Positions 22,456-43,518 of a DNA stretch of 57,802 bases are shown piece after piece (the stretch's first letter is position 1; every line of letters begins with the position of its first letter). The notes under the pieces are model-generated. The model was not told the origin of the DNA. It worked only from the letters and a program-made list of their open reading frames with translations, and made no database searches. Source of the DNA: Pseudomonadota bacterium. GTDB taxonomy: Bacteria > Desulfobacterota > Desulfovibrionia > Desulfovibrionales > Desulfovibrionaceae. Both the position numbers and the translations under genes were made by a program. The DNA is taken from the NCBI GenBank assembly GCA_018817515.1, contig JAHIUD010000031.1, forward strand, positions 1 through 57,802. The letters run 5' to 3'.

Positions 22456-22543
22456 GCCGGGGTGGTGGAATGGTCTACACATGAGACTTAAAATCTCACG
22501 GCCTTTCAAGGCCTTGCGGGTTCAAATCCCGCCCCCGGCACCA
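22456..22543 (+). tRNA. tRNA-Leu (anticodon UAA)
   Basis: Acceptor GCCGGGG pairs with CCCCGGC before ACCA at the 3' end (CCA is encoded). The anticodon arm TGAGA-CTTAAAA-TCTCA gives UAA. A long variable arm and the T arm GCGGGTTCAAATCCCGC follow. The class-II tRNA is complete. It lies between the integrase and a displaced tRNA half, so its 5' half could have been supplied by the integrated element. Confidence 0.93.
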
Positions 22544-22552: not shown

Positions 22553-22611
22553 GGGACTTAAAATCCCTCAATCTTCGGATTATGCGGGTTCGAGCCCCGC
22601 CCTGGGCACCA
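22553..22611 (+). repeat. tRNA-Leu 3' half, probable attachment-site remnant
   Basis: Begins in the anticodon stem (GGGACTTAAAATCCC), continues with a variable arm, T arm (GCGGGTTCGAGCCCCGC) and CCTGGGC-ACCA. No matching GCCCAGG 5' half lies upstream. It starts 9 bases after the intact tRNA-Leu. It is the same kind of fragment as in the three large repeats further right, but with a different variable and T arm. Confidence 0.8.
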
Positions 22612-22735: not shown

Positions 22736-24127
22736 TCAGGTCAACGCATATTCCTTCAACAGGGCATACAGCCGCGCGCGGGACAATCCGGACATGGCGC
22801 AGGCCTTCGGGATATCGCCGCCACACGCGGCCAGCAGTTCCCGCAAATAGCGCGACTCCACCTCGGCCACGGCCTGAAGCCGGACCTGGCGTAATGGCTG
22901 CAGGGGCTGGCCAACCCGCAGACCTTCTTCCACACGAGGTGGCTCCCGGGCAGGGAGGGCGGACCGCGCCAGGTTGACACGAATGTTCGTGGGCAGGTGG
23001 GCGGCCACGAGCACCGGGTCGTTCATGGCCGCAGCCAGGGAATGCTCCACGGCATGGATGAGCTCTCGCACGTTGCCCGGCCAGCCGTAGGTCTCCAGGG
23101 CGTCCAGGTAATCGGGCGAGACACGCTTGGCCGCAAGCCCTTGCTGGCGGCATTGCCGGGCCACGAAATGGCGGCACAGCCGGGCAATGTCGCCGCCCCG
23201 CTCCTTGAGCCTTGGCAGGTCTATGGTCATGGTCCGGATGCGGAAGAGCAGATCCTGGCGGAAGGTCCCGGCGTCGGCCAGGGCTTCAAGGTTGCGATTG
23301 GTGGCCACCAGCAGACGGAAGTCGCTCTGCAGCTCCTTGAGCCCACCCACCGGCCGGTAGCGGCCATCCTGGAGCACGCGCAGGAAGGCCTTCTGCACAG
23401 TCATGGGCAGCTCCCCGATCTCGTCCAGAAACAGCGTCCCCCGGTGGGCCTGGTGGACCATGCCCTCAAAGCGACGGTCGGCCCCGGTGAAGGCGCCGCG
23501 CTCGTAGCCGAACAGCTCGCTCTCCACGAGCTTTTCCGGCAGGGCCGCGCAGTCCACCACCACGAAGGGGTTGTCGGCCCGGGCGCTGTTGTCGTGAATG
23601 GCCCGGGCGAAGAGCTCCTTGCCCGTGCCGGTCTCGCCGGTGATGAGCACGCTGGCCTCCGTGGCCGCGGCTTGGGCCACGAGATCCATGCAGGCGTGCA
23701 GGGCCCGGCTCTCGCCTATGATGCCGCTGCGTTTGAGCCCCAGCGGCAGGACCTTCTGCTTGCCCCGGTGGTGCTCCATGGCGCGCTGGATGGGCAGGCG
23801 GATGGTGTTCAGGGTCGGCGGCTTGGCGATGTAGCTCCAGGCTCCGCTGCGGATGGCCAGTTCCGCGCCGTCCGGGTCGCCCGCACCGGTGAGTATGATG
23901 ACCTCCGGCGCCGAGGGGCATTCCTGGAACCCCGGCAGGCTGTCGAGCCCGCTGCCGTCAGGCATGCGCACGTCCAGCACGACCACGTCGAAGTCTCCGG
24001 CGCGGGCCTTGCGCAGGCCGTCTTTCAGGGTTCCGGCCGTGTTCGCCTCATAGCCCATCTGCTGCACGGCAAGGGCAAGGGCCTCGCAGAGCATGGGGTC
24101 GTCGTCCACGATAAGCACGCGCGACAT
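22736..24127 (-). CDS. Sigma-54-dependent response regulator (NtrC family)
   Basis: Activates sigma-54 promoters on phosphorylation. The 463-residue chain has a receiver (1-118, VLIVDDD and phosphoacceptor Asp52 in LDVRMP), an AAA+ domain (about 135-365) with Walker A GETGTGKE (164-171), the sigma-54 contact loop GAFTGA (211-216), LDEIGEL and WPGNVRELIHAVEHS, and a Fis-type helix-turn-helix at 428-460 (CGGDIPKACAMSGLSRARLY). It lies three bases downstream of the hybrid sensor kinase gene and divergent from the Hdr operon, whose upstream region has a sigma-54-like element; that operon is the likely target. Confidence 0.92.
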   Translation of the reverse strand: MSRVLIVDDDPMLCEALALAVQQMGYEANTAGTLKDGLRKARAGDFDVVVLDVRMPDGSGLDSLPGFQECPSAPEVIILTGAGDPDGAELAIRSGAWSYIAKPPTLNTIRLPIQRAMEHHRGKQKVLPLGLKRSGIIGESRALHACMDLVAQAAATEASVLITGETGTGKELFARAIHDNSARADNPFVVVDCAALPEKLVESELFGYERGAFTGADRRFEGMVHQAHRGTLFLDEIGELPMTVQKAFLRVLQDGRYRPVGGLKELQSDFRLLVATNRNLEALADAGTFRQDLLFRIRTMTIDLPRLKERGGDIARLCRHFVARQCRQQGLAAKRVSPDYLDALETYGWPGNVRELIHAVEHSLAAAMNDPVLVAAHLPTNIRVNLARSALPAREPPRVEEGLRVGQPLQPLRQVRLQAVAEVESRYLRELLAACGGDIPKACAMSGLSRARLYALLKEYALT

Positions 24128-24130: not shown

Positions 24131-26080
24131 TCAGACCTCCTGTGCGGCAGAGCCTCTGCGTTTGCCGGGAATCAGCTTGCGCAGCAAGGCGGCCAGTTCG
24201 TCCATGCGGAAAGGCTTGGCGAGAAATTCCAGTGCGCCGATGCGCCACGCCTTCTCCCTGTTGACCAGGTCGCTGTGCCCCGTGGTCAGGATCACCGGCA
24301 GGTGGGGATCAATCTTGAGCAGTTCCCGGACCAGATCCGGACCGGCCAGGCCAGGCATGGTCGTGTCGCTCAGCACCACGTCAATCATCCCCGGACTCGC
24401 GCGAAACAACTCCAGCGCTTCCTCGCCGCGCAGGCAGGTGCTGACCTCGTAGCCATAGGCGTTGAGACCCATGACGCAGGCGGCCAGGATGTCCGGCTCG
24501 TCATCCACCACGAGCACATGCCCGGTGCCCCTGAAATCCATGCGGGGCTCCAGGGCTTGGGCCTGCTGATCCACGGGCGGAAGGTCCGAGCGCGGCAGCA
24601 GGATTTCAAAACAGGTCCCCTGCCCTTCACCGCTGCGCACCTGGATGGTCCCGCGCAGCCGTGTGACGATGTTCATGACCACGGCTAGGCCGAGCCCAGT
24701 GCCCGAGCCGTCTGCCTTGGTGGTGAAAAAGGGATCGAAGATGCGCTCCATGTGCTCCGGGATGATGCCGTGTCCGCTGTCCTGCACGCTGAAGAGCACA
24801 TAGCTCCCCGGCTGCGCATCGGGAAACACGGCATCGCCCCTTGCGCCCACACCGCGTTCCTGAACGCGCAGATCAAGCGTTCCGCCGGAGCCGCGCATGG
24901 CCCACGCTGCGTTGGTGCAGAGGTTCATGAGCAGTTGATGCACCTGGGCGGGGTCGGCCAGGACCACGTCGCGCTGCGTTTCCGTGGCCAGGGAGATGTC
25001 GATGGTGCTGGGCAGGCTGGGCCGCAAGAGAGTCAGACACTCCAGGATGATGTCCGAGAGGCGCAGAGGGACTGGCTGCTCGGACTCGTGTCTCCGGCTC
25101 AGGCTCAAGATCTGGCGCACCAGGGCCTCGGCGCGCTTGGCGGACTTGAGGATGCTTTTGAGGGAACCGCGCAGGGGGTCGTCCTGGGCAAGCTGGGAGA
25201 GGCCGAGGTCCGCCATGAGCACGATGGGCGAGAGAATGTTGTTGAAGTCGTGGGCTATGCCGCCAGCCAGGGTGCCCAGGGCCTCCATCTTCTGCGCCTG
25301 GCGGAGCTGCCGCTCCAGAGCCTCCATGGCGGCCATGTCGCGCCAGACACTGACGTAACCCAGGATGCAGCCGCCCTTGCCGCGGATGGGCGAGACCGTC
25401 TTGTGGCAGCAGATGACGCTGCCGTCCTTGCAGGTGTTGCAGGTCTTGCCGGTCCATGCGTCGCCGCTGGCCAGGGTCTCCAGTATCTGGTTCAGGCAGG
25501 CCTGCTGCTCCAGTCCCTGATAGAACGTCGCCACGGGCCTGCCGCGCACCTCGTGCAGCGGGTAGCCGGTCATGGCCTCGAAGGCCTGGTTGATGTAGGC
25601 CACGCGCATCATCTCGTCATACAGAATCACGGGGTCGGCGGTCTGCTCCAGAGCCGAGGCCAGGCGGGTGCGCTCCCGCTCCGCCGCCTTCTGCGCGGTG
25701 ATGTCCCGGCAGAACACCGCCACCCGGTCCACAGCCCCGCCCTCCGTGGACACGGGATGCACGCGCACCTCAAGAGCGCGGCCAGGGAAAAACGACTCCT
25801 CGAAGCACGAGGGCTGGCCTGATTCCACTGCATGTTGCACGGCCTTGGCCCACGTTCTGACCACAACGGAAGGAAAGAAGTCGTAGAGGCGTTCGTCGAC
25901 CAGACGCTCCGGCGGCAGGCGAAAGAGCCCGGCCATGGAGACATTGGCCACGAGCACCGTGCTGTCCAGGCGCATCAGCAAGGCATGCTCCGGGCAGGCG
26001 TCCAGCAAGACGCCGACCATGTCGGCCTCGCATCGCCTTGCCTCCAGAGAGCCAGTCGCTTTACGGTGCATAGTCCGCAT
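24131..26080 (-). CDS. Hybrid sensor histidine kinase, soluble, PAS-PAS-HisKA-HATPase-REC
   Basis: 649 residues without transmembrane segments, so it senses a cytoplasmic signal. PAS domains lie at about 23-130 and 142-250. The phosphorylated His277 is in [13 protein letters not shown]. ATPase boxes [10 protein letters not shown] and [15 protein letters not shown] follow, and a C-terminal receiver (520-640) has Asp572 in LSDTTMPG. The second PAS carries four close cysteines (214, 217, 224, 225, CNTC and CC) where most PAS domains have none, which could form a thiol or metal redox switch. It feeds the NtrC-type regulator three bases downstream. Control of the adjacent Hdr operon is inferred from divergence. 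Confidence 0.9.
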
Positions 26081-26094: not shown

Positions 26095-26280
26095 TTGCAA
26101 GTCATTCGATTGCACATCGAGTTTACAGCCACTATTTCCAATCTTACTGTGCAAGATTATGTCTCGTGTCGCAATACTTTAATGCAGAGCAGCAAAGCCA
26201 TACCTCACGCATAGCAATTACACATTATATTAATATTACAAATTAAATGCGCAATGCTGAGTTGCGGCACAATTTTTGAG
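26095..26280 (+). promoter_or_regulatory. Candidate sigma-54 promoter and upstream sites of the Hdr operon
   Basis: CGGCACAATTTTTGAG at 26265-26280 has GGCAC and TTG with exact -24/-12 spacing; the final C of TTGC is A. The start would be near 26292, leaving an ~82-base leader. CGCAA-N7-TTGCG overlaps the -24 box. Upstream, TTGCAA (26095), TTGCAC (26110) and GTGCAA (26149) recur and could be activator half-sites. The region is AT-rich for this genome. It is the divergent intergenic region between the sensor kinase and hdrA. Confidence 0.45.
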
Positions 26281-28404: not shown

Positions 28405-28875
28405 ATGCAAGAACTCATCGTCACCCCAGAAGCACAGGGCGAGCCCATGCCCGGCGCGGCCTTCGAGCCCGCCATCGTGGCCTTTGTCTGCAACTGGTGC
28501 ACCTACACGGCTGCGGACCTGGCCGGAACCTCGCGCATGGTCCAGTCGCCCAACGTCCGGCTGGTGCGCATGATGTGCACCGGCATGGTGGACCCCAAGT
28601 ACATCATCAAGGCGCTACTCGGCGGGGCCGACGCGGTGCTGATCTCGGGCTGCCACCCGGGCGACTGCCACTACATCAACGGCAACTACAAGGCCCGGCG
28701 GCGCGTGAAGCTGCTCATGGAGATCTTGCCGCGCTTCGGCATCGACAGCCGCCGGATCAAGCTGACCTGGGTGGGCGCAAGCGAAGGCAACGAGTTTGCC
28801 GCCACGGTGAACAGCTTCGCGGCGGAGATCAAGGAGCTGGGACCCATCGACACCCGGCGCTTGCCGCTCCTTTGA
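28405..28875 (+). CDS. mvhD: MvhD-type hydrogenase/Hdr iron-sulfur linker subunit
   Basis: A small [2Fe-2S] protein that carries electrons between a hydrogenase or formate dehydrogenase and HdrA. The 156 residues have the family pattern FVCNWCTYTAADLAG, VRMMCTGMVDPKYI, and GCHPGDCHYINGNYKA, with conserved cysteines. ATG 28405 follows GGGAGGAG; an upstream TTG is rejected. Its place right after hdrA is the normal one. Confidence 0.9.
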   Translation: MQELIVTPEAQGEPMPGAAFEPAIVAFVCNWCTYTAADLAGTSRMVQSPNVRLVRMMCTGMVDPKYIIKALLGGADAVLISGCHPGDCHYINGNYKARRRVKLLMEILPRFGIDSRRIKLTWVGASEGNEFAATVNSFAAEIKELGPIDTRRLPLL

Positions 28876-28900: not shown

Positions 28901-30043
28901 ATGGGAAGCATCGCACGAATCGAGGTCAAGGACGCAAACCCGGTAGCCGCGCTCCAGGGCTTCTGCGCCCGGCTGCTGGCGGACGGCGAAATCTCCGCCG
29001 TGCTCGCGCCCCGGCGTCTGCCCGGCAATGGCGGCACCATGCCCGCCCTGGTGGCCGACCCGGCGGAATTGCGCGACGTGGACCCCCTGGCCCCGTCCTT
29101 CCGCCTGAACGCGGCACGCATGCTCACCCGGCTGACCCGGGGCACGGACGAGGGCGGCCTGGTGGCCGCGCTGCTCCGGCCCTGCGAGGTCCGGGCCTTC
29201 ATCGAATTGTGCAAGCTCAACCAGGGCAGCCTGGAGAACACGCTGCTCGTGAGCATGGACTGCCCCGGCGCCTTCACCAACGTCGACTCCGCCAGATTTT
29301 CCGGCAACCGGGGTGACCTGGACGCCCTGCTCGGGTTCCTGCGCGCGGACGGGCGCGGCGCCTTCGACGGCGTTGAGGTCGCCCGGGCCTGCCGCACCTG
29401 CGAGCACGCAACCGGTGCCGAGGCGGACCTGACCATCGGCCTGTTCGGCCAGGATGTGGAGAACGGCCTGCTGCTCATGGCCAATACCCCCAGGGGCGAG
29501 GGCTTCATAACCCGCCTGGGCCTGCCCGAAGCCTCGGACGACGGCTCACGCGGCAGTGCCCTGGAGGCTCTGCTCGCCGAGCGCAGGGCCACGCAGGAGA
29601 AGCTGTTCGCCGAGACCACCGCAGCCACCTCGGACATGACCAAGCTATCCACGTTCCTCTCGGCCTGCGTCAACTGTTACAACTGCCGCGCTGCCTGCCC
29701 GGTCTGCTACTGCAAGGAGTGCGTCTTCTTGACCGATGTTTTCGAGCACAGGCCCTGGCAATACTTGTCCTGGGCCCGCCAGCGCGGCGCCCTCAAGATG
29801 CCCACGGACACGGTGTTCTTCCATCTCACGCGGCTGGCCCACATGAGCACCGCCTGTGTGGGCTGCGGCCAGTGCTCCAACGCCTGCCCCAACGACGTGC
29901 CGGTGATGGAGCTGTTCAAGACCATCGCCGCCAGCACACAGAAGGCCTTCGAGTACGAGGCGGGCAGGGACCCCGGCGAAGCGCCGCCGCTGTCCGTGTT
30001 CCGGGAGCGGGAATTCCCAGAGCTCACCGGAGGACTGGACTAG
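28901..30043 (+). CDS. FrhB/FdhB-like flavin-iron-sulfur oxidoreductase subunit
   Basis: A 380-residue protein combining a coenzyme F420 hydrogenase/dehydrogenase beta-subunit-like part (ALLRPCEVRAFIELCKLNQG, VSMDCPGAFTN) with C-terminal ferredoxin clusters (CVNCYNCRAACPVCYCKEC and CVGCGQCSNACPN). FrhB-like domains bind FAD and exchange electrons with F420, NAD(P)H or ferredoxin partners. The electron donor here is not readable; NADH or formate-linked use would fit a sulfate reducer. The start is ATG 28901 after GCGGAGG; the TTG 15 bases earlier overlaps that site. In this operon it takes the place of a hydrogenase. Confidence 0.8.
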   Translation: MGSIARIEVKDANPVAALQGFCARLLADGEISAVLAPRRLPGNGGTMPALVADPAELRDVDPLAPSFRLNAARMLTRLTRGTDEGGLVAALLRPCEVRAFIELCKLNQGSLENTLLVSMDCPGAFTNVDSARFSGNRGDLDALLGFLRADGRGAFDGVEVARACRTCEHATGAEADLTIGLFGQDVENGLLLMANTPRGEGFITRLGLPEASDDGSRGSALEALLAERRATQEKLFAETTAATSDMTKLSTFLSACVNCYNCRAACPVCYCKECVFLTDVFEHRPWQYLSWARQRGALKMPTDTVFFHLTRLAHMSTACVGCGQCSNACPNDVPVMELFKTIAASTQKAFEYEAGRDPGEAPPLSVFREREFPELTGGLD

Positions 30044-30103: not shown

Positions 30104-33100
30104 ATGAAGAAGGAATACGGAGCACTGGTAGTCGGGGCTGGCATCGGCGGCATCCGGTCCGCCCTGGACCTGGCCGAGACCGGCCTCAAGGTTGCCCTCA
30201 TCGACGCCCGGCCCAGCCTGGGCGGCATCCTGACGCAACTGGACCACCAGTTCCCCTCCGACCACTGCGGCATGTGCAAGATGCTGCCGCTGACCCAGCG
30301 CGACCAGTCCAGCCAATACTGCCTGCGCAAGGGCCTGTTCCACAAGAACATCGACATCTACCTGCACACCGAGCTCACCGGCCTGGAAGGCGACCCAGGC
30401 AAGTTCCAGGCCACCCTGCGCCGCCGCTCGACCTTCGTCGACCCCACGCGCTGCGTGAGTTGCGGGCTGTGCGCGGAGGTCTGCCCGGCGCGGGTGCCCA
30501 GCGAGTTCAACGCCGGCCTGGCCCCGCGCACGGCCGTGTACCTGCCCGTGCCGCACAACATTCCCAACCACTACGTGGTGGACCTGGACAACTGCCAGCG
30601 CTGCTGGCGCTGCTATGAGGCCTGCCCGACAAAGGCCATCGACTTCAAGTTCGAGCAACGCAAGGATTTCCACATCATAGTGGCCACGCCGGACGAACGG
30701 ATCACCCAGGATCTTCCCCTCTGGTTCAAGGACGAGAACTTCCCGCTACACCCCACCGCCACCGGCGAAAAGGCCCTGGAGCTCCTGGCAGGCGGCCTGG
30801 AGTGCGGCCTGATGCTGCTGGACCTGGACCTGCCGGAGGCCGAGGTCGAACGCACCCTGCGCCGGGCGCTGGAGCTGCGCCCGAATCTCGCCGTGGTGCT
30901 GCTGGTTTCCAAGGACAAGGATGGGGCCAAGAACGAGGACGAGGGCAAGGACAAGGCCGTGGCCGCGCTCTTCAAGCAGGGCGCGCGCGAGGTCCTGGCC
31001 AAGCCGCTCAAGCAGGCCCAGGCCGTGCCCTGGCTGGACAAGCTGTTCATGCGCCTGGTCTCGGACGAGAGCTTCAGCCTTGAAGTGGGCGCGGTGATCC
31101 TTGCCGCCGGGTTCGAGTGCTACAACCCCGGCGACAATCCGAATGGCTGCGCGGACCTCATGCTCTACGGCAGCCACCCCGGCGTGCTCACCTCGCTGGA
31201 GTTTGAGCGCTTGGCCAGCCCCACCGGGCCGAGCCAGGGCCTGCTCACGCGACCCGGCGACGGCAAGCCGCTTCACCGCATCGCCTGGCTCCAGTGCGTG
31301 GGCTCGCGCGATGTGAAGAAGCAGGCCGACTTCTGCTCCTCCTTCTGCTGCATGATCTCCATCAAGCAGGCCCTGCTGGCCAAGCGCCGCAGCTGCGGCG
31401 AGGCCGAGGCCACCATCTTCTACATGGACATGCGCACCAATGGCCGCGACTACCAGCGCTACCGCGACGAGGCCGAAAACACGGCCGGGGTGCGCTTCAT
31501 TCCCGCCCGTCCGCACAGCATCCTGCCCGGCCCGGACGGGGACCTGCTGATCCAGTACTATGACTATTCCGGGGAGCTGCGCGAGGAGGTCTTCGATGCC
31601 CTGGTCCTGGCCGTTGGCGCGCGCCCGCCCAAGTCCATGGAGCGCCTTGCCCTGGCCGCCGGCATCGAGGTCAACGACAGCGGCTTCTGCGCCACCAGGT
31701 ATCTTTCCCCGAACCGCACCAGCCGCCTGGGCGTGTTCGCCGCCGGGGCCTTCGGCGAACCTGCCGACATCCGGGGCTCGATGATCCAGGCCGGAGCTGC
31801 GGCCATGGGCGCCTCGCGCATGATCCGGGTCTATCACGGCCCGCGCGACGAGACCCCGGAAGCCGAGCCGGAGTATACGGACGTGTCCCGGCAGGTGCCG
31901 CGCGTGCTCATGGCCCTGTGCTCCTCCTGCCCGACCCTTGAACTCAACGTGAATGCGGACGCCCTGCGCCAGCGCATGGCCATCCTGCCAGGGGTGGTCA
32001 AGGTGGTGGACGTGAAACGCGCCTGCACCCGCGAGGGCTGGGACACCCTGCGCCAGGAGGCCGAGGCTACCGCGCCCAACCGCGTGCTCATCGGCGCCTG
32101 CCTGCCCTATATGCATGTGCCCCGGCTGCGCGAACTGGGCGAGGACCTGAAGCTCAACCCGGCCCTCATGGACGTGGTGGACATCCACACCGCCAGCCTT
32201 GCCGGGCGGGCCACCAGCTTTGGCGGCCACGCCGCGTGCCGGGCCAGTTGCGCCGCCGGTCGTGGTGAGGAACCGGGCGCCAGCCCAGGCGTCTGCGATT
32301 GCGGCGAGACCGCCCGCACAGACGAAATGAGTTCGCTTCTGGCCATGGCAGCGGCCAAGCTCCTGGGCGCGGACCCCTCAAGCCTGCCGCAGGCCACGCC
32401 GGTCTCGCCCCAGGCCTTGGTGGTGGGCGGCGGCCTGGCGGGCATGACCGCGGCCATGGGCATCGCCGACCAGGGCTTCAAGGTGGTCCTGGTGGAGGAG
32501 GCCGAGCAGCTGGGCGGCCAGGCCATGAACCTGCGCTACACCCTGGGGGGCGACGATCCTGCCCGCTTCATGGAGGACCTGATCGAACAGGTGGAGAAGA
32601 ACCCCAACATCCGCGTACTCAAGGACTCGCGGGTGGTGCTCTCGCGCGGCAAGGCCGGGCGGTTCGTCACCGTCGTGGCCACGGGCGAGGGAATGGCCCA
32701 CACCCTGCACCACGGCGCCACCATCCTGGCCACCGGTGGCCACGAGGCCAAGGTCTACGAGTATGGCAATCGCGTGCGCAAGTGCGTCCTCACGCAGCTG
32801 GAATTGGAGCAACGCCTGGCCGCAGGCTCTGTGGACGCCTCCAGCCTCTCGGGCGTGGCCATGATCCAGTGCTGGCGCTCGCGCGAGGAGTCCCGCAACT
32901 ACTGCAGCCGGGTCTGCTGCCAGGGCGCGCTCAAGAACATCCTGATGCTCAAGAAGCGCAACCCGGGCCTGCCGGTCTATGTCTTCTACCGTGACATCAT
33001 GACCACCGGCTTCGCCGAGCACTACTACACCGAGGCGCGTCGCAGCGGGGCCATCTTCATCCGCTACACCCCGGACACCAGGCCCAAGGTGGAGTTCAAG

Positions 33101-33679
33101 GACGACAAGCCGGTGATCACCGCGCTGGACCCGGTGCTGAGCGCGCAGATCGAACTGCACCCGGACCTGCTGGTGCTCTCCAGCGGCGTGGAGCCCAACG
33201 ACTCCGCCGAAATCGCCGACCTCTTCGGGGTGAGCCTCACAGACAACGGCTTCTACCAGGAGGCCGAGAGCAAGTGGCGGCCCGTGGACTTCCTCAAGCA
33301 CGGCGTCTTCGCCTGCGGCCTGGGCCTGGGCCCCGCCACCATGCGCGAGACCCTGCTCTCGGCCAAGGCAGCGGCCCAGCGCGCCGTGCGCATCTTAAGC
33401 GAAAAGCAGCTGTCCTGCGGCAACGTGGTGGCCGAGATCCGCGACACCCTCTGCTCGCGCTGCGGGCGGTGCATCTCCGTATGCCCGTATGGCGCGCGCG
33501 CGCTCGACCTGGACCGCGACAAGATCGTGGTGGACGAGCTTTTGTGCCAGGGCTGCGGCTCGTGCATGGCCGCCTGCCCCAACAGCGCCACCGTGCTGCG
33601 GGGCTTCCGCGACGAGCAGGTCATGGCCGTCATCGACGCGGCCCTGGCCGTACAACCCGCCGCCGCAGCCGGGCTCTGA
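30104..33679 (+). CDS. Double HdrA-like flavoprotein with embedded receiver-like domain
   Basis: 1191 residues, about twice a normal HdrA. First module: FAD loop VVGAGIGGIRSA (8-19), ferredoxin CVSCGLCAEVCP (117-128) and CQRCWRCYEACP (164-175), then, inserted before the second FAD half (AVILAAGFECY, 330-340), a CheY-like segment at 188-318. In that segment Asp240 (LMLLDLDLP), Ser269 (VVLLVS) and Lys300 (VLAKPL) match the phosphorylation Asp, Thr/Ser and Lys; the N-terminal acidic pair is weak (TPDE). A charged linker DKDGAKNEDEGKDK lies within it. The first module also has LQCVGSRDVKKQADFCSSFC. Second module: VVGGGLAGMTAAMG (773-786), QCWRSREESRNYCSRVCC (922-939) and a final ferredoxin (CSRCGRCISVCP, CQGCGSCMAACP). 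It starts after GGGAGG and leads into hdrC. Confidence 0.88.
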   Translation: MKKEYGALVVGAGIGGIRSALDLAETGLKVALIDARPSLGGILTQLDHQFPSDHCGMCKMLPLTQRDQSSQYCLRKGLFHKNIDIYLHTELTGLEGDPGKFQATLRRRSTFVDPTRCVSCGLCAEVCPARVPSEFNAGLAPRTAVYLPVPHNIPNHYVVDLDNCQRCWRCYEACPTKAIDFKFEQRKDFHIIVATPDERITQDLPLWFKDENFPLHPTATGEKALELLAGGLECGLMLLDLDLPEAEVERTLRRALELRPNLAVVLLVSKDKDGAKNEDEGKDKAVAALFKQGAREVLAKPLKQAQAVPWLDKLFMRLVSDESFSLEVGAVILAAGFECYNPGDNPNGCADLMLYGSHPGVLTSLEFERLASPTGPSQGLLTRPGDGKPLHRIAWLQCVGSRDVKKQADFCSSFCCMISIKQALLAKRRSCGEAEATIFYMDMRTNGRDYQRYRDEAENTAGVRFIPARPHSILPGPDGDLLIQYYDYSGELREEVFDALVLAVGARPPKSMERLALAAGIEVNDSGFCATRYLSPNRTSRLGVFAAGAFGEPADIRGSMIQAGAAAMGASRMIRVYHGPRDETPEAEPEYTDVSRQVPRVLMALCSSCPTLELNVNADALRQRMAILPGVVKVVDVKRACTREGWDTLRQEAEATAPNRVLIGACLPYMHVPRLRELGEDLKLNPALMDVVDIHTASLAGRATSFGGHAACRASCAAGRGEEPGASPGVCDCGETARTDEMSSLLAMAAAKLLGADPSSLPQATPVSPQALVVGGGLAGMTAAMGIADQGFKVVLVEEAEQLGGQAMNLRYTLGGDDPARFMEDLIEQVEKNPNIRVLKDSRVVLSRGKAGRFVTVVATGEGMAHTLHHGATILATGGHEAKVYEYGNRVRKCVLTQLELEQRLAAGSVDASSLSGVAMIQCWRSREESRNYCSRVCCQGALKNILMLKKRNPGLPVYVFYRDIMTTGFAEHYYTEARRSGAIFIRYTPDTRPKVEFKDDKPVITALDPVLSAQIELHPDLLVLSSGVEPNDSAEIADLFGVSLTDNGFYQEAESKWRPVDFLKHGVFACGLGLGPATMRETLLSAKAAAQRAVRILSEKQLSCGNVVAEIRDTLCSRCGRCISVCPYGARALDLDRDKIVVDELLCQGCGSCMAACPNSATVLRGFRDEQVMAVIDAALAVQPAAAAGL

Positions 33680-33695: not shown

Positions 33696-34271
33696 ATGAA
33701 GAACACGCACAAGCCCATCGCCTTCGTCCCAGCCCCGCTGGTCTTCCAGGACGAGACGCTGGTCGAGGTCCAGAACATGGTCCGCGCCTGCATGCAGTGC
33801 GGCACCTGCACGGCCTCCTGCCCCAACGCCTTCGCCATGGACCTGACCCCGCGCCAGATGTGGCGGATGCTGCTCTTCGGCCTGAAGCAGGAGGTTTTGC
33901 AGAGCCGCACCTTCTGGCTCTGCTCGGCGTGCTACTCCTGCACATTGCGCTGCCCGCGCGACCTGCCCCTGACCGCAGCCATGGCCGCGCTCAAGCGCAT
34001 GGCTGCGGCCGAAGGCGATTCCGCCAACAGGAAGAAGGCCCTGTTCTACCAGGAGTTCATGCACAACGTGGAGCAGAACGGGCGCATCCAGGAGATGGGC
34101 TTCATGTGCCACTACTTCCTGGCCATGCACGACCCGCTGCTGCCGATGGAATACGGGCCGCTGGGCCTGAAGCTTTTGGCCAAGGGCAAGCTGCACCTGG
34201 GCGGCAGCGGCCAGCGCGGCAGGCTCGGCCCGCTCTTCGCCAAGGTCCGCAGCATGGAGGGGGCATCATGA
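33696..34271 (+). CDS. hdrC: HdrC-like iron-sulfur subunit
   Basis: Passes electrons from HdrA to HdrB. The 191 residues carry two [4Fe-4S] motifs, CMQCGTCTASCP and CSACYSCTLRCP, then a helical tail. The frame is open far upstream, but ATG 33696 is preceded by TGAGGAG and starts just after the previous stop, so it is chosen. Its stop overlaps the hdrB start (ATGA), showing coupling. No membrane segments, as expected for soluble HdrABC. Confidence 0.9.
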   Translation: MKNTHKPIAFVPAPLVFQDETLVEVQNMVRACMQCGTCTASCPNAFAMDLTPRQMWRMLLFGLKQEVLQSRTFWLCSACYSCTLRCPRDLPLTAAMAALKRMAAAEGDSANRKKALFYQEFMHNVEQNGRIQEMGFMCHYFLAMHDPLLPMEYGPLGLKLLAKGKLHLGGSGQRGRLGPLFAKVRSMEGAS

Positions 34272-35143
34272 AGTACGCATACTATCCCGGCTGTTCTCTT
34301 GGAACCAGCGCCGAGGAGTACGATGTCTCCAGCCGCGAGGTGCTGAAGCGCCTCGGCGTGGAACTCTCCGAGATACCGGACTGGACCTGCTGCGGCGCCA
34401 GCGCGGTGGAGCCCGTGAGCAGCCTTTTGACCCTGGCCCTGCCCGCGCGCAACCTGGCCCTGACCGAACGCGAGTGCCCGGGCCTGGACATGCTCGTGCC
34501 ATGCAGCGCCTGCTATCTGAACCACCTGCGGGTGGGCCGCGAATGTGCGGCGGACCGCGCCCTGCCGGGCCGGATCAACGAGGCCCTGGGCACCGAGGGC
34601 CTGAGCTACGCCGGCAAGGTCCGGGTGCGGCACCTGCTGGACGTGCTGGCGGGGGACATCGGGCCGGAGGCCGTGGCCGCCCAGGTCAGCCGCCGCCTGG
34701 AAGGGCTCATTGTGGCCTCGTACTACGGCTGCCAGGCTCTGCGGCCCTATGCCCTGTTCGACGACCCCGAGCGCCCCCGGTCCATGGAGCCGCTCATCAG
34801 CGCCCTGGGCGCAACGGCATTTCGCTGGGATATGGGCGGGCGTTGTTGCGGGGCCTCGCTCATGGCCACCAGGCGTGACGTGGCCCTGGTCTCCGTGGCC
34901 GCCATATTGGACGCCGCTGCCGGGGCCGACGCCATCGTCACGGTCTGCCCCATGTGCCAGATGAACCTGGAGGCGTACCAGAGCCAGGCGCACCAAGCGG
35001 ACACGATCTCGGTCCTGTACCTGCCCCAGCTTCTGGGGCTGGCTTTCGGGCTTTCGGACGAGCAGACGCTTTTGGACAAGAACCTGGCGGTGACGGATGC
35101 GCTCAAGGGCAAGCTTCGCGCCTGCGAAACCGCTAGTGCTTGA
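34268..35143 (+). CDS. hdrB: HdrB-like CCG-domain subunit
   Basis: Disulfide-reducing subunit type with two cysteine-rich (CCG) domains, which in methanogen HdrB hold unusual [4Fe-4S] clusters at the active site. The 291 residues begin MKYAYYPGCSLGTSAEEYDV. The first domain has CCGASAVEP and VPCSACYLNHL, and the second YYGCQALRP, GGRCCGASL and VCPMCQMNLE. All key cysteines are present, so catalysis on a disulfide or thiol is likely; the natural substrate (for example DsrC trisulfide) is not shown. The start overlaps the hdrC stop. Confidence 0.9.
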   Translation: MKYAYYPGCSLGTSAEEYDVSSREVLKRLGVELSEIPDWTCCGASAVEPVSSLLTLALPARNLALTERECPGLDMLVPCSACYLNHLRVGRECAADRALPGRINEALGTEGLSYAGKVRVRHLLDVLAGDIGPEAVAAQVSRRLEGLIVASYYGCQALRPYALFDDPERPRSMEPLISALGATAFRWDMGGRCCGASLMATRRDVALVSVAAILDAAAGADAIVTVCPMCQMNLEAYQSQAHQADTISVLYLPQLLGLAFGLSDEQTLLDKNLAVTDALKGKLRACETASA

Positions 35144-35176: not shown

Positions 35177-36139
35177 ATGTTCAAGGACATTCTTCTCGCC
35201 ATCACACCGTCGGAGTTGTGCGACTGCGCTGCCGAGGCGGCTTTCCACTTCGCGCAGCGCTTCGAGTCCCGCCTGGTCATCGCGCACGTCTGCGGCATGG
35301 CCCAGGGCTGGGGTGAAATGGAGTTTCTGGAGTCCTCCGGCGAGGTGGCCAAGATCAAGGCCTCGGTGGAGGAATACTACAAGGAAAAGCTGCGGGGGCT
35401 GGACAACTACGAGGTCAAGGTCGTGCCTGGCGTGCCGCACGTGGAGATCCTGCGCATCGCCCGCAAGATGAATGCGGACCTCGTGGTCATGGGCCCCCAC
35501 ACCAAGGAATACGCCGAACAGCGCTCGCGCATGTGGGGCATGACCGGCAGCACCCTGGAGCAGGTCAGCCAGAAGGCCGCCTGCCCGGTGATGATCGTGG
35601 CCAAGTCCACCCCATACGGCGAGCACAACTTCCTGAACATCGTGGCGGCCACGGACTTCTCCGACCAGGCCGACTGCGCGGTGCACTACGGCGGGCAGAT
35701 CGCCCGGCACTACAAGGCCGGCCTCACCGTATTCCACTGCGTGGACTTAAGCGGCGAGAATGGCCGCGTGTCCCTCGGGCATGACGAGGTCAAGCGCGCC
35801 ATCGCCCAGAGCAAGGCCAACTTGGAGGAGCGCTACGGCGACAAGCTTCGCGGCATCAAGAGCAGCACCTTCGAAGCCTGGGAAGGGATGCCCGCCATGG
35901 AGATCCTGAAGCTCGCCCGCATGCGCGAGGCCAACCTGATCCTCATGGCCCACCACACCCGCGAGCGAGACCCGGAAAAGGCGTTCCTGGGCTCCACCGT
36001 GATCCAGGTGGCGCTGAACTCACCCTGCCCGACCATCAGCGTGAACCGCCACTTCGACCTGCGCTGCGGCCTGATGTACGACCAGACCGGCGAAGCCGTC
36101 GAGACATCGCACAAGGCCGCCGCCGAAGCCGGAGGGTGA
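35177..36139 (+). CDS. Tandem universal stress protein (two Usp domains)
   Basis: 320 residues made of two Usp folds (about 1-150 and 155-300). Each begins with a strand (MFKDILLAITPSELC; NFLNIVAATDFSDQ) and has the ATP-binding-like loop near its end (GMTGSTLEQVSQKAACPVMI; FLGSTVIQVALNSPCPTISV). GGAGGG lies nine bases before the ATG. Usp proteins modulate stress survival, sometimes by binding ATP near enzymes. Its place inside an Hdr operon suggests a regulatory or chaperone role on that complex; this is inference. Confidence 0.88.
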   Translation: MFKDILLAITPSELCDCAAEAAFHFAQRFESRLVIAHVCGMAQGWGEMEFLESSGEVAKIKASVEEYYKEKLRGLDNYEVKVVPGVPHVEILRIARKMNADLVVMGPHTKEYAEQRSRMWGMTGSTLEQVSQKAACPVMIVAKSTPYGEHNFLNIVAATDFSDQADCAVHYGGQIARHYKAGLTVFHCVDLSGENGRVSLGHDEVKRAIAQSKANLEERYGDKLRGIKSSTFEAWEGMPAMEILKLARMREANLILMAHHTRERDPEKAFLGSTVIQVALNSPCPTISVNRHFDLRCGLMYDQTGEAVETSHKAAAEAGG

Positions 36140-36143
36140 GGTC

Positions 36144-36536
36144 ATGTCCGAGCCGACCAAGGTGCTTGTGGTGGACGACGAGAAGCGCTTCGCCGACAAC
36201 ATGGCCAAGCTGCTGGAGGTGAACGGCCTCGTCGCCGGGAAGGTATACAGCGGCGAGGAGGCCCTGGAAGAGCTGCGCAGGAACGACTACGACGTCGTGC
36301 TCCTGGACATGCGCCTGCCGGGGCTCACCGGCAAAGGCACCCTGGAGCGCCTGCGCGAGGCCAAGGTGGCGGCCAAGGCCATCGTGGTCACCGGGCACGC
36401 CTCCACCGACGATGCCGTTGAACTCATCCGCCTTGGGGCCTTCGATTATATTCTCAAGCCCTGCAAGACCGAGCGGGTCCTGGAGATCATCGACAAGGCG
36501 CACAAGAAGAAGTTGGAGGAGGAGCGCGCCGGTTAG
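36144..36536 (+). CDS. Single-domain response regulator (CheY-like)
   Basis: 130 residues, receiver only: KVLVVDDEKRFADN, phosphoacceptor Asp55 in VVLLDMRLPG, Thr in AIVVTGHAS and Lys in YILKPCKT. There is no output domain, so it must act by protein contact. It starts five bases after the Usp stop. Together with the receiver-like insert in the double HdrA, it hints at phospho-signalling directed at the electron-transfer complex. Confidence 0.9.
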   Translation: MSEPTKVLVVDDEKRFADNMAKLLEVNGLVAGKVYSGEEALEELRRNDYDVVLLDMRLPGLTGKGTLERLREAKVAAKAIVVTGHASTDDAVELIRLGAFDYILKPCKTERVLEIIDKAHKKKLEEERAG

Positions 36537-36572
36537 CCCCTGAGGCGGCGCGCCCCTTCCAAGGGGGACATC

Positions 36573-37922
36573 ATGGAGACCGTTGTGAGCACGCCGGGCG
36601 TGATGCAGCCCGTTATCCCCAGGAGCCTGGCGGACGAGATCCGCCAGCACCTGGCCAAGTTCGACTTCAGCGCCTGCATGGCCTGCGGGGCGTGCAGCAG
36701 CGGCTGCCCCACCACCAACGCCCCGGACAACGAGGGCTGGAACATCCGCAAGGTGCTGCGCATGCTGGCCTACGGCATGGTCGACGAGGTTATGAACTCC
36801 AACTTTCCCTGGCTCTGCACCGGCTGCGGGCGCTGCGCCTACGCCTGCCCCATGGGCATCGACATCGTGCCGGTGATGCTGCACATGAAGCACCTGCGCC
36901 CGCGTGACCAGGTGCCCGGAGTGCTGCAAAAGGGCACAACCAACAACCTGGAGTCCGGCAACAACATGGCCATCCCCAGGGACGACTACCTCCAGGGCAT
37001 GGCCGAACTGGGGCAGCAGCTCTCCGATGAGGACTGCCCTGGCTTCTATGTGCCCGTGGACCGGAAGGAAGCAGACATCCTGTTTTTCCCCAACTCCAAG
37101 GAAGTCTACGGCGACTTCGAGGACCAGTTCTGGTGGTGGAAGATCTTCTATGCCGCCCACGAGAACTGGACCGTGCCCTCCGAGGGCTGGGAGGCCGTGG
37201 ACTGGGCGCTCTTCACCGGAAACTACGAGGGCATCCGCGCCCTGGCCGAGCGCAAGATCAGCTACATCAAGCGCCAGGGCATCAAGCGCATGATCATGCC
37301 GGACTGCGGTGGCGGCTCATACGGCTGCCGCACGGGCATGAAGTCCTGCGTGGAGCTGAACGAGGAGAACCGCGTCAATTTCATCTACCTCTACGAATAC
37401 CTCCAGGAGATCATCCAGCAGGGCCGCATCCGGCTTGACAAGAGCGTGCACGCGGGCAAGCGCTTCACCTGGCACGACTCCTGTAAGCATGGCCGCGAAC
37501 TTTTGAAGCACTATGGCCAGGCCTTCTTTGACGAGCCGCGCTGGATCCTCTCCCAGTGCGTGGACGAATTCGTGGAGATGACGCCCAACCGAGAGGCCAA
37601 CTACTGCTGCGGCGCGGGCGGCGGCAACTGGCCGGGGCCGTTTGAGAAGCAGTCGGCCTTTCACGGGCGCTACAAGGCGGACCAGATCCGGCGCAGCGGC
37701 GCGGACGTGGTGGTGGTGGGCTGCTCCAACTGCCGCGACCAGATCATGAAGCGGCTGCCCAAGTACTACAAGGATCTCAAGTATGAGGTGAAGTACCTCT
37801 GGCAGGTGGTGGCCGAGGCGCTGGTCATCGAGCCCTGGCCTGACGAGGAGGTCGAACGGGCCGCTGCTGAGGCCAGCGCCCAGTGGAAGACCTTTGGAAT
37901 CGACCCCGACGCTGGTCTGTGA
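36573..37922 (+). CDS. HdrD-like ferredoxin-CCG iron-sulfur protein
   Basis: 449 residues combining an HdrC-like ferredoxin (CMACGACSSGCP at 35-46 and CTGCGRCAYACP at 82-93) and HdrB-like CCG domains, the HdrD arrangement. The second CCG domain is intact (WHDSCKHG, NYCCGAGGG, VGCSNCRDQIMKR). The first is degenerate (PDCGGGSYGCRTG). AGGGGGACATC precedes the ATG. It ends the operon; the first direct repeat with its tRNA half starts 49 bases later. Likely a further disulfide-reducing or electron-acceptor module, substrate unknown. Confidence 0.88.
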   Translation: METVVSTPGVMQPVIPRSLADEIRQHLAKFDFSACMACGACSSGCPTTNAPDNEGWNIRKVLRMLAYGMVDEVMNSNFPWLCTGCGRCAYACPMGIDIVPVMLHMKHLRPRDQVPGVLQKGTTNNLESGNNMAIPRDDYLQGMAELGQQLSDEDCPGFYVPVDRKEADILFFPNSKEVYGDFEDQFWWWKIFYAAHENWTVPSEGWEAVDWALFTGNYEGIRALAERKISYIKRQGIKRMIMPDCGGGSYGCRTGMKSCVELNEENRVNFIYLYEYLQEIIQQGRIRLDKSVHAGKRFTWHDSCKHGRELLKHYGQAFFDEPRWILSQCVDEFVEMTPNREANYCCGAGGGNWPGPFEKQSAFHGRYKADQIRRSGADVVVVGCSNCRDQIMKRLPKYYKDLKYEVKYLWQVVAEALVIEPWPDEEVERAAAEASAQWKTFGIDPDAGL

Positions 37923-37970
37923 AACACTGTCTGCGTAAGCATCATGCGTGAAGCAAGTGAGGTACAAACC

Positions 37971-38154
37971 TTGCTCCAATTTTGCTCCACTGCGAGTGCA
38001 AACCAGTGATCATTCGTGAATACGCATGCGTACGCAACCGTCAGGAATCATTCACAGTGCATTCATAATACACTGTAATAATTAGCATAAAATAGAGACT
38101 TAAAATCCCTCAACCTTCGGGTTATGTCGGTTCGATTCCGACCCTGGGCACCAA
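37971..38154 (+). repeat. Direct repeat copy A, with tRNA-Leu 3' half
   Basis: A ~184-base unit starting TTGCTCCAATTTTGCTCC, containing the palindrome ACGCATGCGT and ACAGTG/CACTGT arms. It ends with the 3' half of a tRNA-Leu: anticodon loop CTTAAAA, variable arm, T arm GTCGGTTCGATTCCGAC, and CCTGGGC-ACCA. Copies B (45440) and C (51229) are in the same orientation and highly similar along the whole unit. No 5' tRNA half is nearby. It closes the Hdr module. Confidence 0.85.
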
Positions 38155-38169
38155 GCATATCAACAAGTT

Positions 38170-38200
38170 AAAAGGACGGCTCGACGTGGGCCGTCCTTTT
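38170..38200 (+). terminator. Rho-independent terminator after repeat A
   Basis: AAAAGGACGGC at 38170-38180 pairs with GCCGTCCTTTT at 38190-38200, an 11-bp stem with 9-base loop and a T-tract. It lies 17 bases after the tRNA-half CCA, so it may be the old terminator of the tRNA gene. It would also stop transcription running out of the Hdr operon. Confidence 0.75.
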
Positions 38201-38740
38201 CCATTCCCCAGCATTCTACTGAATCGTAGCCATTCATACGTTTGCCATCGTATTCCTGGAAATATCATTGGAAGTGCTCCCTAATGTACGCATGCGGCAT
38301 GCGGCATCATGCAACAGAACTGGGCATTATGCTCACGACTTGTACAAAGCAAATCCTTCCTCACAGGATATTCCGCTCTTATGAGCGGCACCGCACCGAC
38401 ACATCCACCACTCCCTGCAATTGTCACTATACCGAGACCTCGCAAACTCGCGTGTTACGGGATGCATTGGGAGATCATCATGGAAAGGCCTTTAACAAAA
38501 GGCCAGGGCAATAGCCGCACAGCCCCTATCGCCAACCCCGCCCACGTTCGGCACCGCGAGACTATCGCCGAAACGGTTCTTCCCCCCCACTGCCCCCAAA
38601 GAAGCGTTCAGGGTGCTGACCATCCCGTAAGCATAGCTTGATTCAATGCGCTCAGCGCAGGCGAACTCGGCGTTACGCCTCACGGAAGCAGCAGACCGAA
38701 GCCCACTCGCAACACATCTCTTACCCTTTGGAGCCACACC
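38201..38740. other. 540-base gap without supported gene
   Basis: Two short plus-strand frames occur (from 38242 and from 38309), but their translations are unlike proteins and lack ribosome sites. The promoter of the BON gene probably lies near its right end. Nothing else is seen. Confidence 0.5.
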
Positions 38741-39574
38741 ATGCATCCGCATTCCCGCAAACTGATCCTCATCACAAGCCTTGTGCTTGCCATGGCGGCA
38801 CCAAACGGCGTGGCCGCCGCGGACACCGTGTCTCAGGAGATCGTCGACGCGCGGCAGGAGACCCAGATATGGACGACCTATGCCCTGAGCCCCTATCTGC
38901 GCGCCAACAACCTGAGCGTGTCCGTGCAGAACAACAAGGCCACCCTGACCGGCACCGTTGAAGAGGATGTCAGCAAGGAACTGGCCACGGAGATCGCCCT
39001 GGGCGTGGGCGGCATCAAGGAAGTGGACAACCAGATCGCGGTCCAGGCCGATTACACGCCCGTCAAACCGTCTGCGGACCGCAGTTATGGCGAGGTTGTC
39101 GACGATGCAATCATCACCTCCGCAGTCAAGTCGAAGCTTGCGTGGAGCAAGAACACGGATGGCCTCAACGTCAAGGTCGACACCAAGTTTGGCCGGGTGC
39201 TGCTACGCGGCACCGCCGACAGCGCCGCAAGCAAGGAACTCGCCGGGCGCCTGGCCCTCAACACCCGAGGCGTGGCGTCCGTGGACAACCAGTTGGCGGT
39301 CGCCCCCATGAAGCCAACGGCTGTGCAGAGCGCCAAGGCCTCTGCGCATGAGGCCAGGCAAGACCTCGCCGACAGCTGGATAACCACCAAGGTGAAGTCT
39401 ACTTTCCTTTACTCCAGCAACGTGTCTGGCTCAGACATCACCGTCAACACCAACCAGGGCGTCGTCACCCTGAATGGGAAGCTCAAGAGCGGAGCCGAAC
39501 GCGCCTTGGCCATCGAACTTGCGCAGAACGTGCGCGGCGTGAGGAGCGTCCAGGCCAAGGGCCTCAGGTTTTAA
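38741..39574 (+). CDS. Periplasmic protein with three BON domains
   Basis: 277 residues: a signal peptide (LILITSLVLAMAAPNGVAAA) followed by three BON repeats, each ending in the pattern of a strand plus GV.SVDNQ: LSVSVQNNKATLTGTV, LNVKVDTKFGRVLLRGTADS, ITVNTNQGVVTLNGKLKSG. BON domains bind phospholipid or peptidoglycan surfaces, as in OsmY, and are induced by osmotic or envelope stress. TTTGGAG lies eight bases before the ATG. It opens the envelope-stress module. Confidence 0.88.
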   Translation: MHPHSRKLILITSLVLAMAAPNGVAAADTVSQEIVDARQETQIWTTYALSPYLRANNLSVSVQNNKATLTGTVEEDVSKELATEIALGVGGIKEVDNQIAVQADYTPVKPSADRSYGEVVDDAIITSAVKSKLAWSKNTDGLNVKVDTKFGRVLLRGTADSAASKELAGRLALNTRGVASVDNQLAVAPMKPTAVQSAKASAHEARQDLADSWITTKVKSTFLYSSNVSGSDITVNTNQGVVTLNGKLKSGAERALAIELAQNVRGVRSVQAKGLRF

Positions 39575-39738
39575 GGCGAACGAAGACAAGCGGGAAGAGA
39601 TTCCAGGTATTGCCCATGGCGCGCCAGGACAAACTCCGGAGCAGTTGTCGTTTGAAAAACGCTCCCGGCTCCTCCTCCTTCTTGGTGTCGGACAGGGCCT
39701 TGCACACAGGCAGTAACAACAGTCCATGGAGAACGTCG

Positions 39739-40191
39739 ATGAAATTCAAGGCAACGACCATCCTGACCATAGCGACAGCGCTTCTTCTGACTGCCTCACT
39801 TGCGGTTGCCGAAATGGTGCAAGACTCAGACGGGATACGCAGCCCTCCGCCCATGAACCAGGTGGGCCCCATGGGGGGGAACAGCATGGGCAACATGGTC
39901 ATTCCGCCCGAGAAACTGGAGGCCATACGGATAATCCAGAGCCATTACGCGGAACAGCTGTTCAGCCTGCGCCAGGACATCCGCGCAAAGCAGGTTGAGC
40001 TCAATGCCATCATGCTCAAACCTCAGCCCGACACGGCCAAGGCCAAGAATACGTTCAGGCAGATCGCCGCCCTACAGATTAAGGAAACCGACACCCTCAT
40101 CGACATGCTCGCCAGGATCTCCATAGAAACGGACGTGCGCCTGCCCATGCTGCACACGGGCCAGGGTGGAGTCCAAGCGAAGAGAGAGTGA
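39739..40191 (+). CDS. Spy/CpxP/ZraP-like periplasmic protein
   Basis: 150 residues with a signal peptide (ILTIATALLLTASLAVA) and a long helical region (LEAIRIIQSHYAEQLFSLRQ, then KQVELNAIMLKPQPDTAKAK) typical of periplasmic chaperone-like Spy/CpxP/ZraP proteins, where a length of about 150 is usual. A Met/Pro-rich segment (PPPMNQVGPMGGNSMGNM) may bind metals such as copper. ATG 39739 follows GGAG; the in-frame start at 39610 adds non-signal residues and is rejected. Confidence 0.75.
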   Translation: MKFKATTILTIATALLLTASLAVAEMVQDSDGIRSPPPMNQVGPMGGNSMGNMVIPPEKLEAIRIIQSHYAEQLFSLRQDIRAKQVELNAIMLKPQPDTAKAKNTFRQIAALQIKETDTLIDMLARISIETDVRLPMLHTGQGGVQAKRE

Positions 40192-40365
40192 AGAGAAAGT
40201 GTAAAGATCGCGGAATCAACCTGGCTTGCTTAGCGAGGAGGACCCAGTGATTGCCCCGTCAACGCACGCATTTTGAACACGTGTCCACTGAAACCCCGTA
40301 GGCCGCAGATCCTCTCACGATGTGGCCAGCGCCTGCACACACTGTAATTTCAAGGAGATTAGTTT

Positions 40366-41427: not shown

Positions 41428-41451
41428 ACCAGTGCGCGACTAATACAGCAA

Positions 41452-41483
41452 GGGGCTGCGAGACCAAACGGTTTCGCAGCCCC
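41452..41483 (+). terminator. Rho-independent-type terminator after VWA-OmpA gene
   Basis: GGGGCTGCGAGACC at 41452-41465 pairs with GGTTTCGCAGCCCC at 41470-41483 around AAAC, a 14-bp stem with one G-T pair. The T-tract is weak (TCTCACATT). It lies 24 bases after the stop codon. Confidence 0.75.
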
Positions 41484-41561
41484 TCTCACATTCAACGGGT
41501 GTCGTTCAAGCGGGTGTCGTTACGCAGAGCGATTATGCCACCTTGCGCCCCGCCATTCCCT

Positions 41562-42514: not shown

Positions 42515-42524
42515 AGACAGCGTT

Positions 42525-42671: not shown

Positions 42672-42785
42672 CACCACCGGCTTCGCGCACTTTCCGCAGC
42701 AAAAGGTTGTGGACAGGCAGGACAGCGTTCCGCGGAAGTTCCCCCCGAGATTCTCTCCGACACAACCAACCCTCTGGAGAAGCAC

Positions 42786-43418: not shown

Positions 43419-43518
43419 CCAAGACGTAAGCGCGCAAACGCCGTGACGGGCGGCTGGATTCAATGCCGCCCACTGTCACGGCTTCATCACCCAACCAACC
43501 CCGACATGGGAGAGAATC

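Follow-up and report, generated by a model that had tools for sequence, protein, structure and literature searches.

Can an enzyme of the heterodisulfide reductase (Hdr) type carry a two-component receiver within its own chain, and does such a receiver act as a switch? The question is raised by a double HdrA protein of 1191 amino acids encoded in the window, that is, the whole stretch of 57,802 nucleotides analysed here (contig JAHIUD010000031.1 of assembly GCA_018817515.1, from a bacterium of the family Desulfovibrionaceae). A first-pass annotation had proposed that residues 188-318 are a receiver built into HdrA, that Asp240, Ser269 and Lys300 of its active site are all kept, and that its N-terminal acidic pair is weak, and had suggested that the enzyme is tuned directly by phosphorylation or by receiver-receiver contact. 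Our answer differs between the family and this particular protein. Phosphorylation control is, in our opinion, the best reading of the receiver-HdrA sequences as a family, while in its ordinary form it is unlikely for the window protein, judging by the residues that it retains. Taken as a whole, a working phosphorylation switch in relatives with a complete active site (called canonical below), lost or replaced in the clade of the window (whose receivers we call degenerate), is an explanation to which we give an even chance.

The receiver profile PF00072 gives the window insert 17.3 bits (E 0.0055) within the whole protein and 24.2 bits (E 4e-5) when it is searched alone, below the Pfam gathering cutoff of 30.2 bits. 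We nevertheless accept it as a receiver because its relatives match this profile: 47 of 48 aligned inserts do so at E <= 0.001 (48 of the 61 available). A full-length scan of seven relatives, designated by locus numbers, gave 109.2-111.3 bits for the canonical L022, L031 and L076; of the window's clade, L046 reached 52.5 bits and L016 and L048 had no PF00072 match at E <= 0.001. For the insert-free L069 no such match was found among the 25 of 30 families listed. The AlphaFold model of the insert (pLDDT 89.6, pTM 0.85) has strands and helices alternating in (beta-alpha)5 order, and its top Foldseek matches in the PDB are the LuxO receiver (3CFY) and a CheY-like receiver (3CRN), with probability 1.00. 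A profile built from the 48 inserts reached 315 distinct PDB sequences at E <= 0.001; among the 60 matches listed, a designed protein comes first, followed by FleR, CheY-like, Spo0F and NtrC receivers. Since the relatives not only match PF00072 but also align on the same core, a chance resemblance is ruled out. Residues ~189-320 are thus a receiver by predicted fold, nearly as first placed. A predicted structure other than a receiver had been named as the result that would overturn the idea, and the comparison with CheY that had been proposed returned a receiver.

The host protein is a double HdrA. Both halves of the open reading frame (ORF) match HdrA, below the NCBIfam cutoffs for HdrA2 (NF040770; 616 versus 1100 bits) and HdrA (498 versus 1400 bits), and the PDB chains 8RVU and 5ODC match the protein at E ~1e-100 by sequence. 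Pfam, the PDB sequence match and Foldseek agree on the HdrA traits, namely a flavin adenine dinucleotide (FAD) domain with an inserted ferredoxin and a C-terminal ferredoxin, and the full-length model is of good quality (pLDDT 85.8, pTM 0.86). In the inserted ferredoxin, cysteines 117, 123, 127, 164, 167, 170 and 174 are invariant among 48 aligned proteins; no inserted ferredoxin was seen in the second half by Pfam or in that alignment. Further cysteines were assigned by eye only: Cys55/58 in the first half and Cys606/641/666 in the middle region, the corresponding site of the second half having none. HdrA of known structure aligns to residues 7-184 of the protein, ending at chain residue 313 (5ODC), and the alignment resumes at residue 322 with chain residue 323 of a different chain (8RVU). 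This break at 184-322 therefore puts the insert directly behind the inserted ferredoxin domain, between it and the remainder of the first FAD domain, and the site is the same in the relatives. In the full-length model a helix (304-320) immediately precedes a strand (322-333), and the receiver is seated without linkers.

The annotation had also called for a search for other HdrA homologues with the insert, and these exist. The genome scan was made with patterns taken from the window, one of them within the insert, and its best 80 of 113 matches gave 79 loci, so that the proportions below are not prevalences. In an alignment of 80 rows (these loci and the window) the insert is visible in 61. Of the 19 rows in which it is not visible, contig ends truncate L056 and L058, L073 has no residues there and L082 is masked; the remaining 15 have 7-16 residues in place of the insert. 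All 60 loci with an insert are titled Deltaproteobacteria, "Proteobacteria" or sulfate-reducer or syntroph groups, other phyla being covered by the genome scan alone. In a separate search of 395 genomes sampled from the phylum, the matches listed, which stop short of the weakest, span the whole 253-residue junction in 15, that of the window among them; the other matches listed cover a single flank. We then have a tree of 77 rows, made by a quick method with SH-aLRT support only and with the insert columns excluded (L066, L068 and L073, being too short, were omitted). The insert carriers form one clade (support 99), and the two rows without an insert inside it are the truncated L056 and L058. 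One origin is hence the simplest reading, and the receiver was probably inserted into double HdrA once. The 14 degenerate rows used in the tree in turn form one clade (support 100), with all 45 canonical rows outside it; this clade is of Desulfovibrionales type, and its titles are Desulfovibrio, Pseudodesulfovibrio, Solidesulfovibrio and Desulfomicrobium, plus metagenome-assembled genomes (MAGs).

It is the active site that separates the two groups. Read in the order DD, D, T, K, P over the 61 insert-bearing rows, the columns show DDDTKP in 45. The other 16 comprise TPDAKP (three rows), TPDVKP (two, the window and L010), DRGAKP (two), DAGAKP (two, L018 and L037, identical copies from one MAG) and one each of SADTKP, SADAKP, SPDTKP, DPSGHP, AGDITP, DPDDKP and DTGAKP. 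The second acidic residue is lost in 16/16 of these, Thr in 14/16 and Lys in 2/16, while the phospho-acceptor Asp is replaced by Gly or Ser in 6/16 (two being the identical copies from one MAG). Conservation of Asp, Ser and Lys, whose absence in homologues had been named as a second overturning result, splits by clade. The window has T, P, D, V and K where the catalytic set is DD, D, T/S and K. Asp240 and Lys300 indeed stand in the right columns, but the Thr/Ser column holds Val268, with Ser269 at the next position, and the acidic pair is not weak but absent, being Thr195-Pro196. A pseudo-receiver is defined, in the part of PMC12632262 available to us, as a receiver by sequence or fold without the key catalytic residues, and the window insert, receiver-like in its predicted structure and without DD and T in its sequence, is one. 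Most of the relatives found, in contrast, have full receivers. Direct tuning by phosphorylation is hence well supported as a trait of the family and poorly supported for the window protein.

Constraint on the insert follows the same division. In 42 canonical full-length rows its mean pairwise identity is 0.68, below that of the first FAD part alone (0.76) and above the five other regions compared (ferredoxin domains 0.65 and 0.63, other FAD parts 0.58 and 0.57, middle 0.39). In the 14 degenerate rows none of the seven regions is less conserved than the insert (0.51; others 0.62-0.81). The pooled Nei-Gojobori ratio of nonsynonymous to synonymous rates (dN/dS) is lower for the insert (0.09) than for the remaining enzyme (0.16) in 13 selected canonical pairs. 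Near the window the order is reversed, with 0.40 for the insert and 0.21 for the remainder in the 28 pairs formed by eight rows; in three more degenerate pairs the insert was saturated. Constraint on the receiver is thus strong as long as the active site is complete, and relaxed, though still purifying, in the window's group. One may ask whether the receiver serves throughout the family for docking or dimer contact, with phosphorylation incidental. In the window's clade the fold does persist although the active site is lost, with R254, L258, R295, D312, K313 and R317 fixed in 14/14 rows, and the modelled seating without linkers fits such a role. However, a docking module does not account for the retention of all five catalytic residues in 45/45 inserts outside the degenerate clade, nor for a canonical insert whose dN/dS lies below that of the rest of the enzyme. 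We consider this alternative unlikely, though worth keeping in mind.

Where the sequence extends 4 kb or more beyond the HdrA ORF, we looked for kinases by BLAST to five kinase cores. Of 30 such canonical loci (out of 45), 23 have a histidine kinase ORF no more than 4 kb downstream, as do 0/11 degenerate loci and 4 of 15 loci without a seen insert (L073, where the insert state is undecided, being among the 15); for the canonical loci against these 15, Fisher's test gives p = 0.003, uncorrected for kinship. In the degenerate loci that reach far enough upstream, an NtrC-type gene is divergent there in 13/13, and the kinase stands beside it in 9/13. In L031 a HAMP-PAS-HisKA-HATPase ORF starts 67 bp past the HdrA ORF (stop-to-stop frame), and a REC-HATPase comes next. 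Pfam (E <= 1e-5, ten proteins scanned) shows no DNA-binding domain in such pairs of kinase and REC-HATPase from L031, L039 and L063. Of 25 receiver-free kinases downstream in canonical and no-insert loci, 18 fall into one single-linkage family, from 16 canonical loci, L058 and L087. Judging from this arrangement, the HdrA receiver would be a natural target of the neighbouring kinases. As an observation apart, the sensor part of 12 of the 25 contains the motif C-x2-C-P-V-x2-T; examples beside canonical HdrA are L042:12870-14747, L061:12895-14757, L031:5265-7556 and L049:5089-7470. Its Cys-x2-Cys-Pro-Val portion might bind a metal or sense the redox state.

The explanation that we favour can now be stated in full. 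The double HdrA of an HdrA-MvhD-FrhB-HdrA-HdrC-HdrB gene set acquired a two-component receiver, probably a single time, where the chain leaves the inserted ferredoxin domain, as is seen from the sequences, the alignment to known structures and the tree. In canonical members a histidine kinase, often encoded downstream, would phosphorylate the conserved Asp, and the movement of the receiver, transmitted through its last helix, which runs straight into the FAD domain, would alter the docking of the inserted ferredoxin or the passage of low-potential electrons. Electron branching could in this way be set after translation. The analysis shows the predicted fold, its place in the chain, the single clade, the conserved residues, the relative constraint and the gene neighbourhood, whereas phosphorylation, the direction of its effect and bifurcation itself are what we infer here. 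In the window's clade this control would have been lost or replaced: the fold is kept, most of the catalytic quintet is gone and other residues are fixed. The degenerate insert is most likely a fixed structural or docking module, and any remaining control would have passed to other parts.

Several facts weigh against the switch in canonical members. Same-strand kinases alone occur in 18/30 canonical loci versus 4/15 loci without a seen insert (p = 0.057, again uncorrected for kinship), and 7/30 canonical loci have no kinase within 4 kb downstream. L023, L044 and L055 have an NtrC-like ORF with a receiver and no kinase module in the neighbourhood of HdrA, and L040, L043 and L070 have one upstream; the kinases at those loci may therefore serve transcription. 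The tree leaves open the order of the degenerate clade and two canonical clades. Finally, according to the accessible part of PMC12350162, the apparent gating mobile arm consists of other subunits plus the N- and C-terminal domains of HdrA, not the inserted ferredoxin.

Could the window protein itself nevertheless be tuned through Asp240, by way of the hybrid kinase at 24131-26080 or the lone receiver? Profile searches confirm all three regulatory genes, the hybrid kinase, the NtrC-type regulator and the lone receiver (36144-36536). Kinase and lone receiver adjoin this HdrA, and Asp240 and Lys300 are retained in the window and its seven nearest relatives (L009-L015). Against this, the acidic pair and the Thr/Ser are lost, constraint on the insert is relaxed, the Asp itself is missing in the six degenerate rows mentioned above, and the hybrid kinase has its own receiver as well as an adjacent NtrC-type partner. 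Such tuning seems to us highly improbable. Nor do we find support for a rule by which the lone receiver stands in for the decayed fused one: it is present in the window and in 5/5 covering loci of the closest relatives, but in 0/6 covering loci in the rest of the clade, namely L016, L017, L018, L037, L046 and L048, all of which have a degenerate insert.

Information might also flow in the opposite direction, the redox state of HdrA altering the receiver, which would bind or drain a kinase and so report electron pressure to a sigma-54 regulator. Sigma-54 regulators do lie near several clusters. The window's Hdr gene row is divergent from the hybrid kinase and NtrC-type regulator. But the sigma-54 activator of L054, the sole one from a canonical locus scanned with Pfam, has no receiver (E <= 1e-5); we find such feedback very unlikely. 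A putative sigma-54 promoter at 26265-26279 was discarded as evidence, the pattern matching 61 times in the window, fewer than in shuffled sequence (mean 88.5).

The receiver-bearing double HdrA can be compared with what is known. HdrA of soluble HdrABC (PDB 5ODC, 7BKB, 8RVU; E 1e-86 to 1e-100 by sequence, ~1e-42 to 1e-44 by Foldseek) shares the FAD domain, the inserted ferredoxin and the C-terminal ferredoxin, but it is a single HdrA without a receiver, and the match is interrupted there. Fused double HdrA, which like the window protein consists of two HdrA halves, occurs as ANME HdrA3/HdrA4 and in the Moorella MetFV-HdrABC-MvhD complex, there with complementary losses, the first half being without the N-terminal Fe-S domain and having the Cys197 equivalent, and the second half the reverse; the word "receiver" is absent from the text of this source (PMC9012536). 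The double HdrA itself is therefore not new. HdrL and HdrA-NfnB fusions are also related. Hdr locus VIII of D. autotrophicum HRM2 has tandem hdrL/hdrA, a gene for formate dehydrogenase subunit B and hdrB/hdrC, and this operon resembles that of the window; response regulator, histidine kinase and CheY-like genes also appear in the legend to the complete figure, while a receiver within HdrA is not mentioned in the portion at hand (PMC2702500). HdrA with other inserts is likewise already on record in the accessible parts of PMC2702500 and PMC9012536. Response regulators that join a receiver to a metabolic enzyme are already recognised as a class, and one such fusion, with thioredoxin reductase, comes from metagenomes (PMC5847659). 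The word "heterodisulfide" is absent from that text, and the window's receiver sits inside the enzyme. Searches of open-licence PMC papers gave no description of an Hdr with a receiver, nor was there a receiver-Hdr fusion in the available parts of PMC12142623 and PMC1183210.

An Hdr-type complex in which two-component phosphorylation of a built-in receiver switches the electron branching after translation, with decay of the switch to a fixed part in one lineage, appears to us possible, at slightly less than even odds. If true, it would be, to our knowledge, the first two-component switch on flavin-based electron bifurcation. The life of sulfate reducers runs close to the thermodynamic limit, and by what means they divide electrons between low- and high-potential carriers is, as far as we know, not settled. 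With a receiver fused where the chain leaves the ferredoxin, there would be a control point that is direct, fast and testable. An intact switch in many relatives, worn down in the window's genome, would moreover be a natural experiment on the control of such enzymes, for which Desulfoferrobacter suflitae DRH4 (L076, quintet intact) and Solidesulfovibrio alcoholivorans DSM 5433 (L016, a decayed receiver with Ser in place of Asp), two records whose titles do not mark them as MAGs, allow a comparison.

The features of the locus are collected in Table 1; the MvhD-like name there is our presumption, not the result of a family search.

Table 1. Genes, domains and active-site columns of the Hdr locus (positions in the window)
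Feature	Position	Strand	Basis
NtrC-type sigma-54 response regulator	22736..24127	-	Pfam, NCBIfam
Hybrid histidine kinase (PAS-PAS-HisKA-HATPase-REC)	24131..26080	-	Pfam
HdrA, 668 aa	26374..28380	+	NCBIfam; L022 counterpart scanned has extra NAD(P)-binding insert
Presumed MvhD-like subunit	28405..28875	+	conserved in homologous clusters
FrhB/FdhB-type Fe-S protein	28901..30043	+	PF04432 (23.0 bits, cutoff 23.3), Fer4
Double HdrA with receiver insert, 1191 aa	30104..33679	+	uninterrupted ORF, ATG start; HdrA profile and structure matches
First half, FAD-binding part (residues 1-105), with Cys55/Cys58	30104..30418	+	Pfam, alignment, PDB match
Inserted ferredoxin domain (residues ~106-183, two 4Fe-4S motifs)	30419..30652	+	Pfam; aligns to 5ODC until chain residue 313
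Receiver-fold insert, degenerate (residues 189-320)	30668..31063	+	Pfam, alignment, predicted structure, Foldseek
Acidic-pair columns, Thr195-Pro196 (lost)	30686..30691	+	alignment
Phospho-acceptor column, Asp240 (kept)	30821..30823	+	alignment
Thr/Ser column, Val268 (lost)	30905..30907	+	alignment
Lys300 (kept)	31001..31003	+	alignment
Remainder of first thioredoxin-reductase-like FAD domain (residues 322-590)	31067..31873	+	Pfam, PDB match, model
Middle region (residues 600-760), by-eye likeness to HdrA N-terminal Fe-S domain	31901..32383	+	by-eye comparison with upstream HdrA; invariant Cys606, 641, 666
Second HdrA half and C-terminal ferredoxin domain (residues 768-1166)	32405..33601	+	Pfam, alignment
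HdrC-like	33696..34271	+	TIGR03290, E 8e-27, below cutoff
HdrB-like (two CCG domains)	34268..35143	+	Pfam, NCBIfam
Double universal stress protein	35177..36139	+	Pfam
Stand-alone receiver, canonical residues (by eye)	36144..36536	+	PF00072, 98.8 bits
HmcF/TmcB/DsrK-like Fe-S protein	36573..37922	+	NCBIfam

The surroundings of the cluster deserve a brief mention. An intact tRNA-Leu(UAA) (22456-22543) is followed by a tRNA-Leu-like 3'-half fragment (22555-22611), and further such fragments lie downstream at 38097-38153, ~45565-45621 and ~51355-51411 (the last two reckoned from the match). Att-like repeats thus bound the regulator-Hdr cluster (22.6-38.1 kb) as well as two more segments; no integrase was noticed among the ORFs searched, a part of the total. 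Just before the tRNA fragments stand three copies of a repeat of ~121 bp (37971-38091, 45440-45560, 51229-51349), with a partial fourth copy on another contig; Rfam gave no match at E <= 0.1 in 36000-53000. In L010, a close relative, the same cluster lies between two copies of tRNA-Ala(GGC), contained in a direct repeat of ~113 bp (L010:26-138 and L010:16356-16468). As to the idea of an island, no flanking tRNA or shared repeats were found within 4 kb of five further clusters (one each in genomes G040, G391 and G277 and two in G395) by ARAGORN, which can miss tRNA fragments, and a repeat search. G395, a single MAG, carries two diverged copies of the cluster, L009 and L011. Elsewhere the window encodes a polyketide/fatty-acid-synthase-like protein of 2592 aa (5885-13663, minus strand) with KS, AT, ACP, KR, dehydratase-like and nitronate monooxygenase domains, and, at 51590-55975 on the minus strand, a second sigma-54 response regulator together with a large kinase containing a Tll0287-like domain.

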